Origin: Candidatus Vogelbacteria bacterium
Lineage (GTDB): Bacteria; Patescibacteriota; Minisyncoccia; Phycocordibacterales; XYD1-FULL-46-19
NCBI GenBank assembly: GCA_016188295.1
Contig: JACPIA010000008.1
Span: forward strand, 1 to 38,858
DNA: 38,858 nt
Direction of reading: 5' to 3'
Shown here in pieces: positions 2,592-6,507 of the stretch. Below the pieces are notes generated by a model. That model did not search any database and was not told the DNA's origin. It worked only from the letters and a program-made list of their open reading frames with translations. The translations under genes and the position numbers were made by a program. Positions within the stretch are counted from its first letter, which is position 1; the number at the start of each line of letters is the position of its first letter.

Positions 2592-3164
2592 ATGAAAAAG
2601 GGGGTTTTATACCTAATACCAGGTCTGGGGGAATCGACTAGACTAAAATCTTACCAATCTGTTATTAAACAGGCTAAACAGTTTGGCTTAATTGTCGTAC
2701 CAGTAAATATAAAGTGGCAAGACAACAAAACTATGGATAATTTTGTTTCTCAAGTTGATGCAAAAATTCCTGATCATATTACTAATGATTATATCTTAGG
2801 TTTTTCTTTCGGTGCTTATATTTCTGCCATTCTATCTGACAAAAAACAAGCCAAGGGATACATTTTTTGTTCCCTATCACCATATTTTAAGGACGATCTT
2901 AAATTTATACCAGTTCAAAGTAAGAAATATTTTGGACTAAAAATGATGAATAGTTTTAAAAAATATTCCTTTCCTAAAAAAATTACTGGTAAGGTGTGGT
3001 TTTTAATTGGGTCACAAGAATGGCCTTTAGCTATTAATCGGACAAAAGAATATGCCAAAAGTTTATCAGGGAATAGTACTATAAAAATAGTTAGTGATGC
3101 AGGACATGACTTATCCAACACAAAATATCTTCAAAAAATTGGGGGGATACTAAAAAAGCTCTAA
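2592..3164 (+). CDS. Alpha/beta hydrolase fold protein (paralog of 4730-5212)
   Basis: LIPGLGE, GFSFGA nucleophile elbow, C-terminal DAGHDLS. Confidence 0.8.
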   Translation: MKKGVLYLIPGLGESTRLKSYQSVIKQAKQFGLIVVPVNIKWQDNKTMDNFVSQVDAKIPDHITNDYILGFSFGAYISAILSDKKQAKGYIFCSLSPYFKDDLKFIPVQSKKYFGLKMMNSFKKYSFPKKITGKVWFLIGSQEWPLAINRTKEYAKSLSGNSTIKIVSDAGHDLSNTKYLQKIGGILKKL

Positions 3165-3182
3165 GGATTAACCTAGAGCTTT
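3155..3182. terminator. Bidirectional hairpin between convergent genes
   Basis: AAAGCTCTA...TAGAGCTTT overlapping both stop codons. Confidence 0.5.
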
Positions 3183-4114
3183 GAAACTATGATTTGAGCC
3201 ATTTCTTTGCTATCTTTTTTATCTCCGAAACCAAACCAATCCCCACACGGATTTAAATCTACCAAAGTAAACTTACTATTTTGATCTAGTAAAAAATCCG
3301 CCGAACAGTAACTTAAACCAGTCTTGATGAGCAAAGTTTTGAGTCCCTTGACTACTTTTTGTGGTAAAGTATCTCTTTGCCAATTTAATTCAGAGGTACT
3401 CATCTGCACCTCGCGTAAACCTTTCCCACCTAATTCTTCAGTTTCTATACTATAAACCCACTCACGATTATCTACTAGTATAACTCTGAATTGCTTAATA
3501 GACTCTATTTCCGACTGCCACTGCCAAGGTAGAGACATCAAGTCTATGTCATCCAAACTTTTGCCAGTCAATAAAGTGAGAGCTGTTTCTTGGCCCGCGT
3601 CTACATTTAATGAAACGGAGAAAGGATGACCTAGGACTTTTCTATATGGCGTATCACTTTTTGCCCTGTCTCGAAATGAATTCACCGTCTTTGAAGGTAT
3701 TTGTAAGCCACAACTAGAAGCCAACTGATAAATAATAGGTTTTGTCTCTCCAAGCAAAATATTTTCATAAGTACCGGGAAAACACTTTACTTGCCTGAAA
3801 CAAAAGATGATGTCTCTCAAAAATACTTCTATCTTTTGCCTAAGCAAACCTGGATATTGGCATCCTTTAGGCAGTTTAACCAAGCAGTCTGTCCTCCATA
3901 ATCTAGAAAGGAAAATCGTGGAAGGCTTTAGTTCCAAACCGTTGTAGCGTAGATGTATACCGTTACAGTCAGACGATAACTCAAATTGAGTAATCTCGTC
4001 ATAATCCAGTGGGTTGAGAAGTAAGTAACTTTTCCCACTTTCAACAAGGACATCTTCCAAAAACACAACCTATGCTTCCTTGTCATATAAAGAACTAGCG
4101 AATACAAGTATCAT
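3173..4114 (-). CDS. ATP-grasp protein resembling graspetide (MvdC/MvdD-like) maturases; in-frame TAG at codon 15 (4070-4072)
   Basis: C-terminal YCSADFLLDQNSKFTLVDLNPCGDWFGFG resembles the ATP-grasp metal-binding motif of MvdD-type enzymes; N-term MILVFASSLYDKEA*VVFLEDVLVESGKSYLLLNPLDY stays in frame across the TAG; AGGAG upstream of ATG 4114. Confidence 0.7.
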
Positions 4115-4138
4115 GATATTCCTACTCCTGTTTTTAGT

Positions 4139-4170
4139 AATGGACGGCAGGAAATATCCTGCCGTCCATT
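4139..4170. other. Perfect 14-bp stem-loop between small peptide gene and ATP-grasp gene
   Basis: AATGGACGGCAGGA-AATA-TCCTGCCGTCCATT. Confidence 0.85.
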
Positions 4171-4175
4171 GATTT

Positions 4176-4280
4176 TTACCCGCAATGATGGACTGTAGGC
4201 CTAAGAGGCTCACCACCATTCGCGACTTCCGCGAGTTGGTTGAGTGTAAGTTCATGAACTGGTCTCTGTTGAGATGTCAT
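4176..4280 (-). CDS. Candidate RiPP precursor, double-glycine leader: MTSQQRPVHELTLNQLAEVANGG/EPLRPTVHHCG (34 aa)
   Basis: AGAAAGGAGGTG SD (4288-4299) 7 nt before ATG; ELTLNQLAEVANGG resembles a GG-type leader; sits upstream of ATP-grasp on the same strand. Confidence 0.75.
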   Translation of the reverse strand: MTSQQRPVHELTLNQLAEVANGGEPLRPTVHHCG

Positions 4281-4323
4281 CAGATACCACCTCCTTTCTG
4301 TGACAATACTATCATATTTAGTT

Positions 4324-4329
4324 ATTATA
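4324..4329 (-). promoter_or_regulatory. Possible extended -10 for the 4280 peptide
   Basis: TGCTATAAT on the minus strand upstream of the SD; no good -35 at standard spacing. Confidence 0.4.
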
Positions 4330-4341
4330 GCATAGGACCAC

Positions 4342-4370
4342 TTGCAAAATATGTTACTTTAGTGTATATT
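4342..4370 (+). promoter_or_regulatory. Sigma70-like promoter for the DUF397 gene
   Basis: TTGCAA, 17 nt, TATATT. Confidence 0.5.
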
Positions 4371-4445
4371 ACGGAGCAGAATTGCATCTCGCAATATCGC
4401 AGTACCTGACTGAATCAGGCAACATTAAAGTAAGGAAACAAGGTT

Positions 4446-4655
4446 ATGAGTGAACCGCATCGTTTTGAGGTCAAGGATGAGGACTTCCAAAAGTCTTCAT
4501 GGTCAAAGAATAACCCGAAGACTTGCGTACTTGTCGCCAAAAAGCCAGAAGGCATTGCTCTCCGCGACAGCAAGGACCCGAGCAAAAGCACCCTTTTCTT
4601 CACCGCCGAGGAGTGGACGGCCTTCACCAAAGGCGTCAAGGACGGCGAGTTCTAG
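4446..4655 (+). CDS. DUF397-like protein
   Basis: FQKSSWSKNNPKTCVLVAKKPEGIALRDSKDPSKSTLFFTAEEWTAFTKGVKDGEF matches the DUF397 pattern W.KSS.S....CV.VA...G..RDSKDP...L.F...EW.AF..GV..GEF. Confidence 0.85.
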   Translation: MSEPHRFEVKDEDFQKSSWSKNNPKTCVLVAKKPEGIALRDSKDPSKSTLFFTAEEWTAFTKGVKDGEF

Positions 4656-4729
4656 ACCAAACAGTCGTCGACCTTGCACAAAGGGCGAGCAGGATACACT
4701 CTTGCTTGCCCTAACTTATTGTAATTTTT

Positions 4730-5212
4730 ATGAAAAAAACTTTATACATTATTCCAGGTTGGGGAGAATATTCTCGCTATAAGATATACCAGTCGCTTGC
4801 AGTGTTAGCTAAGAAAAAAGGCTATAGCGTGGTTTTTTATGATGTTGATTGGAATAAAAGTTTATCCTCCCAAATATTTCCTGTTAAAAAAAGTGATGTT
4901 ATTTTTGGCTTCTCATTGGGTGCAATTTTTGGCCATCTTATTGCCCAAAAATATGAGTGTAATAAATTAATACTCGCTTCAATGACTCCGCTATATTCTT
5001 TTAAAGACAAAAAAATAAAAAAACAACTTGTAGATTTACTAGGCAAAGTATTTATAGAGGATGTTGCTAAAAAACTAACTTCTAAACATTGGGCCAAAAA
5101 GCAGGTGATTATTTATGGTGACCAAGAGGATGAACCAGGAGATATTATAATTCCTCGCACTGGTCATCGTCTAAACGCAAGATATAACAAAACAATTATC
5201 GAATTGCTCTAG
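4730..5212 (+). CDS. Alpha/beta hydrolase fold protein (paralog of 2592-3164)
   Basis: MKKTLYIIPGWGEYSRYKIYQS aligns with MKKGVLYLIPGLGESTRLKSYQS; GFSLGA; RTGHRLN. Confidence 0.75.
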   Translation: MKKTLYIIPGWGEYSRYKIYQSLAVLAKKKGYSVVFYDVDWNKSLSSQIFPVKKSDVIFGFSLGAIFGHLIAQKYECNKLILASMTPLYSFKDKKIKKQLVDLLGKVFIEDVAKKLTSKHWAKKQVIIYGDQEDEPGDIIIPRTGHRLNARYNKTIIELL

Positions 5213-5277
5213 TTTTTGTATGGAATCATTCGGGCGAAAGACCAGTGAATGTTAAAGCGACGCCTTGCCTAAGGATC

Positions 5278-6507
5278 TTAAGTAGATAGAATATACGCTT
5301 TATTTATAGATAATAGATGAAGTACTGACTTGATGTCATTTAATGTTACATTTCTTATTTTTTTAGCGTAATCGTCTAATGTATTAAGTTGACCATTTAT
5401 TAATAAATCAAACCCATAACTAAAAGATATATTTTTTTGAGATGAATAGAAATTATACATAGCTTGGTTGATTATTTTGATCTTTAATTTTTCTAACCTG
5501 GATTCATCTATATTACTCAACCAACTATTAAAATAGTTTTTAACAAGTTCGCTGGCCTCTCTTGGATATTTAGTAGTAAGTCCGAAGTAATAAATTCCTG
5601 TATCGGTCAGTTTAATATTTCTTGAAATATAACTATAACTTAAGTTATTTTTTAAGCGCAATTCTTCAAATAATTTAGCTTGATACCCATCTCCTAAATA
5701 ACTACTAATTATATCTAAAGCGAATGATAGTCTATGATTACTTGGTATGGTTACAAATGAAAATCTTAGATCGGTGGGCAAGTCATTTGATTCAGATTTT
5801 ACATTATGTAGTTTTAAATTGTTTACTGGAACAGCTTGTGGGACAGAGGTTATAGAAGTCTTTGTTAGGGGTCTCACTATTTTTTCTAGTTTATTCATGA
5901 TAAACCTTTCTATTTCATCATTCTTAATATTTCCAACACAAATTACGGTAATTAATTCAGGTCTTACTACCTGATTATAAAATAATTTTATTTGATCAAT
6001 TTCAATCTCTTTTAAGGGGTAAGGATTCGGGTATGGAGGTGTAATTAACGCGCTGTTAGAAAAGATTTGTTGAATTAAATTTCTTTCCAACCATTTTATA
6101 TGGTTATTAATTTGCGAATTATATTCTGCCTCTAAAACCCTCTGTTCTTTATTTATAGCTTCTTGGGTTATATTTGGATTTAATATTTTATCAAATAATA
6201 AATCCAGCAATCTTTCCCAATTTTCAATCAAAGTCTCTCCATTTAGGGTAAGATATTCCATACTAGTTTGAGCATTAAATTTTCCTCCTATACTTTCTAA
6301 TACATCAGCCATATCCTTTTCCTGTGGATATTTTTTTGATCCAGCCATCAATAAATGCTCTAGTAAGTGGGTGTATTCTTTTTCTTCTTCCTTTTCATGA
6401 CGCCAACCAGATTTAATAAAAACATTGACATTTAGAATTTTAGAATCAGGTATGTTCTGGATAACTATCCGTGATCCATTTTTAGTAAGTTTAATTTGAG
6501 GTGTCAT
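5278..6507 (-). CDS. M16 family zinc metallopeptidase
   Basis: HxxEH motif in YTHLLEHLLMAGSKKYP; EQRVLEAE downstream; single-chain 409 aa. Confidence 0.9.
   Translation of the reverse strand: MTPQIKLTKNGSRIVIQNIPDSKILNVNVFIKSGWRHEKEEEKEYTHLLEHLLMAGSKKYPQEKDMADVLESIGGKFNAQTSMEYLTLNGETLIENWERLLDLLFDKILNPNITQEAINKEQRVLEAEYNSQINNHIKWLERNLIQQIFSNSALITPPYPNPYPLKEIEIDQIKLFYNQVVRPELITVICVGNIKNDEIERFIMNKLEKIVRPLTKTSITSVPQAVPVNNLKLHNVKSESNDLPTDLRFSFVTIPSNHRLSFALDIISSYLGDGYQAKLFEELRLKNNLSYSYISRNIKLTDTGIYYFGLTTKYPREASELVKNYFNSWLSNIDESRLEKLKIKIINQAMYNFYSSQKNISFSYGFDLLINGQLNTLDDYAKKIRNVTLNDIKSVLHLLSINKAYILST

Follow-up and report, generated by a model that had tools for sequence, protein, structure and literature searches.

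The DUF397 locus

The window, i.e., the whole stretch of 38,858 nucleotides analyzed here, carries a gene for a 69-aa DUF397 protein, followed on the same strand by a terminator-like hairpin and a gene for a small alpha/beta serine hydrolase. The earlier note on this DNA, made from the letters and open reading frames, mentioned neither of these two downstream elements. On the other side of the DUF397 gene lies a divergently oriented candidate peptide operon, as that note had stated. The features of the locus are as follows.

2592-3164, plus strand: second, paralogous alpha/beta hydrolase, 190 aa, on the far side of the peptide locus (match to the same profile; 31% identity to the product of 4730-5212)
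3173-4066, minus strand: putative ATP-grasp RiPP (graspetide-type) maturase (NCBIfam TIGR04187, 61 bits, below the cut-off of 350)
4138-4171, minus strand: hairpin between the precursor and ATP-grasp genes (inverted repeat, listed on the plus strand)
4176-4280, minus strand: candidate RiPP precursor, 34 aa, with a double-glycine-type leader (MTSQQRPVHELTLNQLAEVANGG / EPLRPTVHHCG), from its translation; outside the recurrent module
4342-4370, plus strand: promoter-like site TTGCAA-17 nt-TATATT upstream of DUF397 (consensus match only)
4446-4655, plus strand: DUF397 protein, 69 aa, ATG to TAG (Pfam PF04149, 59.7 bits; AlphaFold beta-beta-beta-beta-alpha, pLDDT 76)
4682-4712, plus strand: terminator-like hairpin with a 13-bp stem, between DUF397 and hydrolase (a hairpin occupies this position in nearly all CPR copies)
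4730-5212, plus strand: small alpha/beta serine hydrolase, 160 aa, with a GFSLG nucleophile motif and a conserved His (pLDDT 92; Foldseek matches to small esterases and RBBP9)

The product of 4446-4655 is a true DUF397 protein, as first proposed from its translation. It matches Pfam family PF04149 over nearly the whole domain (profile positions 3 to 55 of 55) with an E value of 3.1e-16, and its 59.7 bits compare with a curated cut-off of 24 bits. It is the single DUF397 copy in the genome of 573,798 bases. The AlphaFold model has strands at residues 15 to 18, 27 to 33, 36 to 41, and 49 to 53 and a terminal helix at residues 54 to 65. This predicted order agrees with the beta-beta-beta-beta-alpha topology given for the family (PMC7159879). 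A CxE motif in strand 2 and an RDS motif are typical of DUF397. The RDS motif is present in the window's protein, and the CxE position reads C-V-L.

A sequence search of the PDB found no DUF397 structure, and a PHROG search returned one unnamed family that matches DUF397. The top Foldseek match of the model was MoSub1, a PC4/Sub1 single-stranded DNA-binding protein, and it was weak (E value of 0.38, TM score of 0.44). Kinship with PC4 is unsupported: when 17 DUF397 members were scanned against Pfam under relaxed settings, none matched PC4, and PC4 itself is practically absent in CPR. Nothing is therefore claimed from this structural match.

A small serine hydrolase is the recurrent partner of CPR DUF397

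The hydrolase gene of the window starts 74 bp downstream of the DUF397 gene. When 52 DUF397 copies from 50 CPR genomes were compared, an alpha/beta hydrolase was the next same-strand gene, starting at most 250 bp downstream, for 29 of them, with a gap of most commonly 40 to 75 bp. The pattern was first spotted in a class-wide sample (9 of 17 DUF397 loci), and it appeared again among 20 of 35 new DUF397 genes in a sample of the order and in two of four further genomes from other classes (L149 and L150). Neighbors of DUF397 served as seeds for the hydrolase profile, which was then run over all open reading frames of the loci, so that hydrolase detection was not independent of the hypothesis. A whole-genome search with a narrower hydrolase alignment, in turn, yielded only 24 such hydrolases from 118 genomes, for which less than one chance adjacency is expected. 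In addition, the sequence distances of DUF397 and hydrolase correlate (Mantel rho of 0.48, p of 0.0005). The partnership is not obligatory, since 23 of the 52 copies lack such a hydrolase immediately downstream, and DUF397 may have partners other than the hydrolase.

The window's hydrolase combines the alpha/beta fold with the GxSxG motif (GFSLG) and a conserved catalytic His (His146). Its model, with a pLDDT of 92, is matched by Foldseek to esterases with a probability of 1.0 and resembles feruloyl esterases, RBBP9, and YqiA, while all Pfam matches of the protein lie below cut-off. The hydrolases beside DUF397 copies belong to several divergent types of 130 to 250 aa. Most have GxSxG; the strict motif is missing in those of L024, L026, and L088, and the pattern match is off the expected place in those of L025 and L092. 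A search with PADLOC models of known phage-defence systems gave no match for six proteins.

Two further arrangements were seen among these loci. In L022, L023, and L061, a DUF397 gene without the hydrolase is followed by a same-strand gene for an ABC-F type ATPase, a possible alternative partner. In the Campbellbacteria loci L019 (8176-10622) and L064, DUF397 is followed by two or three such hydrolases, arranged in tandem or nearly so.

A terminator-like hairpin follows nearly all CPR DUF397 genes

The hairpin at 4682-4712 ends approximately 17 nt before the hydrolase start, and no evident ribosome-binding site was found between the two. A terminator-like hairpin followed by T stands after 47 of 51 CPR DUF397 genes, including 27 of the 29 hydrolase-linked ones, and is also present after copies without the hydrolase. 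Among control genes, it was found after 27 of 87 (31%) co-directional and 34 of 120 other genes; the difference between DUF397 and the co-directional controls has a Fisher p of 2e-9. Judged from its sequence, the layout in the window looks like that of an attenuated pair. An intergenic terminator can also mark separate transcription units instead of attenuation.

The promoter-like sequence that the earlier note had assigned to DUF397 is indeed present at 4342-4370, but such sites occur here at about the rate of shuffled sequence (10 versus 9.5 expected). An Rfam search of positions 3000 to 6500 found nothing.

Third-position GC is raised in DUF397

The high-GC codon choice described previously for this gene was confirmed: its third-position GC (GC3) is 68%, above that of each of 198 genes (100 aa or longer) sampled from the same genome (40 ± 7%; 99th percentile, 58%). 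Across the CPR, DUF397 exceeds every neighboring gene in GC3 in 40 of 52 loci. The codon TTC has a share of 0.64 in DUF397 versus 0.28 in neighboring genes, and ATC a share of 0.60 versus 0.23. Over the 52 loci, the GC3 of DUF397 correlates with that of the host (rho of 0.49), and the GC3 of the partner hydrolase lies below the mean of its neighbors. Ordinary high-expression codon bias was rejected as the cause, as the ribosomal genes of 12 genomes lack such an elevation; in the window's genome, the ribosomal-protein operon has a GC3 of 40 ± 5%. An antisense gene was also unconvincing, with 16 and 22 open frames observed versus 12.7 and 19.8 expected under matched codon use. The raised GC3 of DUF397 is real, yet neither ribosomal-type codon bias nor an antisense gene explains it.

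Distribution and lineage of DUF397 in the CPR

The domain was flagged in the earlier note as unusual outside actinobacteria, which is consistent with a 2020 survey that describes it as "currently found only in actinobacteria" (PMC7159879) and with its description as "most abundant in actinobacteria" (PMC2701414). Judged on titles and abstracts, none of 25 papers mentioning DUF397 has the CPR as its topic. The CPR copies correct the published restriction to actinobacteria. Among the genomes sampled, 39 of 397 from the window's order (approximately 10%), 17 of 384 from its class, and 8 of 380 in a phylum-wide set carried DUF397, and positive genomes of the class and order samples nearly always have one copy. 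The carriers include Vogelbacteria, Campbellbacteria (with the complete chromosome CP011215.1), Yanofskybacteria, Taylorbacteria, and Nomurabacteria.

By both tree and identity, the closest relative of the window's DUF397 (77% identity) belongs to another Candidatus Vogelbacteria MAG, L094. In both genomes, the DUF397-hydrolase pair lies upstream of trpS-aspS, with extra genes in between in the window. This shared position suggests descent of the pair at the level of the Vogelbacteria, on top of a patchy overall distribution. The picture of a widespread and vertically inherited family, which the earlier note had set against its own proposal of acquisition, holds in part.

In a tree of 70 DUF397 domains, 10 of 11 actinobacterial sequences form one supported group. 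L148 is the only CPR-labeled sequence of actinobacterial type, and L028 forms one long branch. The window's DUF397 falls in a CPR group of 13 members, 11 of them hydrolase-linked. A single-clade test of actinobacterial DUF397 against all CPR copies was not rejected (p of 0.30), nor was one clade for the CPR copies minus L148 (p of 0.53); so short a domain does not allow a firm tree topology. Position 14 is Trp in 10 of 11 actinobacterial versus Phe in 53 of 59 CPR sequences, and the Glu of CxE is kept in 10 of 11 versus 12 of 59. CPR DUF397 proteins appear mostly to represent a diversified lineage of their own.

Two genomic positions stand out. L062 and L067, from different families, share the order parB-DUF397-relA/spoT-topA, an orphan DUF397 with apparent vertical inheritance. 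In L020 (7970-8179), DUF397 separates pheS from pheT and runs on the other strand, which gives the appearance of an insertion into the operon.

DUF397 and hydrolase on phage contigs

When 2.9 million viral contigs were scanned for the window's DUF397 group, one contig was returned, and a separate scan for the hydrolase led to the same contig alone. This 39-kb contig, L165 (IMGVR_UViG_3300009515_000007), is of CPR phage type, with a terminase, a phage-type DNA methyltransferase, and a YqaJ recombinase. It carries a hairpin together with the two genes:

L165, 9998-10201: DUF397
L165, 10715-11125: alpha/beta hydrolase

Both run opposite to the surrounding phage genes in a moron-like manner, with a gap of about 510 bp. 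A second phage-like contig, L167, has DUF397 with hydrolase genes upstream. The module is apparently mobile and phage-borne.

The usual actinobacterial partner is missing

In Actinobacteria, DUF397 is paired with XRE(DUF5753) regulators, as in Scr1/Scr2 and WhiJ/BldB-like pairs (PMC10364602, PMC6262351, PMC10294661). DUF5753 was found in none of the 50 DUF397-bearing CPR genomes, and the positive control detected it in five of five actinobacterial records. With a local profile, an XRE-DUF5753 regulator was placed within 400 bp of all 11 actinobacterial DUF397 genes and of 23 among 104 viral ones, but of none of the 52 in the CPR, whereas a hydrolase adjoins none of the 11 actinobacterial copies, compared with 29 of 52 in the CPR.

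The CPR loci nevertheless resemble these pairs in several respects. DUF397, 63 to 90 aa long, adjoins one dedicated larger partner gene; the CV, RDSK, EW, and GEF motifs are common to both sets; and the distribution is patchy and extends to plasmids and phages. They differ in that the partner is an alpha/beta hydrolase and not an HTH regulator, and in that DUF397 comes first and has a terminator at its end, while in the actinobacterial pair it follows the regulator and the genes overlap. At the protein level, Trp at position 14 is replaced by Phe, and the CxE Glu is mostly lost. CPR genomes usually have one copy, in contrast to the many of Actinobacteria, where few small proteins are as heavily duplicated as DUF397 (BldB-like) proteins.

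Type III ToxIN-like toxin-antitoxin operons have an intergenic terminator. The CPR arrangement may be likened to this layout, in which a small component comes first, then a terminator, and then an enzyme at a lower level, but here the first component is a protein gene. A toxin-antitoxin proposal for DUF397 was not borne out in 14 Streptomyces pairs (PMC10364602).

A possible two-gene accessory module

The recurrent terminator and the hydrolase in place of the usual regulator point to an undescribed two-gene module. We propose, with a likelihood just short of even, that this is a recurrent CPR accessory module in which DUF397, made in excess, is separated by a terminator serving as attenuator from a dedicated alpha/beta serine hydrolase partner. 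The identity of DUF397, its linkage to the hydrolase, the hairpin, the co-variation, and the absence of the usual partner were computed directly. For attenuation, DUF397 excess, binding to the hydrolase, and the sign of control, we infer the following scheme. A promoter of its own would drive DUF397, its transcripts would be short and mostly end at the hairpin, and this termination would lead to an excess of DUF397. Read-through past the hairpin, with the hydrolase start codon approximately 17 nt beyond, would give the hydrolase at a low level. By analogy with actinobacterial DUF397 and its XRE-DUF5753 regulators, DUF397 may then be a dedicated protein partner that binds and controls the hydrolase.

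Several observations argue against this scheme. Any tight protein-protein interface must fit all of the divergent hydrolase types; the phage layouts deviate, by the long gap in L165 and the upstream hydrolase in L167; and the codon bias of DUF397 is unlike ordinary high-expression bias, being absent from ribosomal genes. A more specific version is possible, though we consider it doubtful: an undescribed mobile system found in Patescibacteria and their phages, where excess DUF397 would restrain a scarce serine hydrolase in an antitoxin- or exclusion-like manner, with the fold re-used from actinobacterial regulator partnerships. With DUF397 beside an enzyme and not a transcription factor, the domain's own activity becomes separable from DNA regulation, and the CPR pair offers a simple two-protein assay. 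Moreover, an apparently mobile, phage-borne module extends the scarce list of CPR accessory systems.

The hydrolase link could instead be merely positional, with a mobile DUF397-terminator cassette that sits next to hydrolases in variable islands but does not interact with them functionally. The patchy distribution of DUF397, its presence on phage contigs, the insertion-like site between pheT and pheS in L020, and the terminator after hydrolase-less copies are all consistent with this. We consider it unlikely, given that order, strand, and spacing are constant across several hydrolase types and many families and that the sequences of DUF397 and hydrolase co-vary.

It is likewise improbable that DUF397 is a substrate or carrier, with a group attached to its invariant Cys27 by acylation or another modification and removed or processed by the hydrolase. 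The order of small gene, hairpin, and enzyme would then mirror RiPP operons, in which the precursor is in excess over the enzyme. Cys27-Val28 is invariant in 59 of 59 CPR copies, the hydrolase retains Ser and His in a small-esterase fold, and the adjacent peptide operon has the same order of small gene, hairpin, and enzyme. However, the Cys is equally conserved in XRE-paired actinobacterial DUF397 (10 of 11), the AlphaFold model puts Cys27 within a small beta sheet, on one of its strands, and DUF397 has no leader/core organization.

The neighboring peptide locus

The divergent operon probably represents a graspetide-type locus with a maturase very divergent from known families: its best match in the TIGR04184/85/87 group reaches only 61 bits, far below the curated cut-off of 350. 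The precursor gene, proposed from sequence only, has a strong Shine-Dalgarno motif. The earlier note, which regarded DUF397 as mainly actinobacterial, took it to be horizontally acquired and possibly to act as a regulator or partner of this locus. The divergent layout with putative promoters close together and the raised GC of DUF397 fit that proposal, as does the report that graspetide groups 11 and 13 of Actinomycetota may carry DUF397 with DUF5753 (PMC13097080). The window likewise has DUF397 beside an ATP-grasp maturase and a precursor. Unlike in those groups, DUF5753 is absent from the window's genome, the association is not conserved in the CPR, and the maturase scores far below curated cut-offs.

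Regulation of the peptide locus by DUF397 is a very unlikely reading in view of the other CPR loci. No close homologue of the maturase was found in 15 family relatives, and an ATP-grasp maturase of any form lies near only 3 of 51 DUF397 loci, two of which, besides the window, have distant homologues within a few kilobases. The peptide locus as a neighbor of DUF397 is particular to the window's genome, and the idea rests on this single arrangement; the conserved pairing is with the hydrolase. Recent acquisition from Actinobacteria is not supported either, as the window's DUF397 is nested in a mostly separate CPR lineage carried by about 10% of the order and has its nearest relative, in the same trpS-aspS context, in another Vogelbacteria MAG.

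An assembly chimera or actinobacterial contamination, which the description of the family as actinobacterial might bring to mind (PMC7159879), has a negligible probability and is ruled out for the DUF397 family as a whole by copies in single-contig genomes, including CP011215.1; in the window, which the earlier note rightly assigned to a CPR-like genome, CPR genes flank DUF397, and relatives of the same family share the locus.
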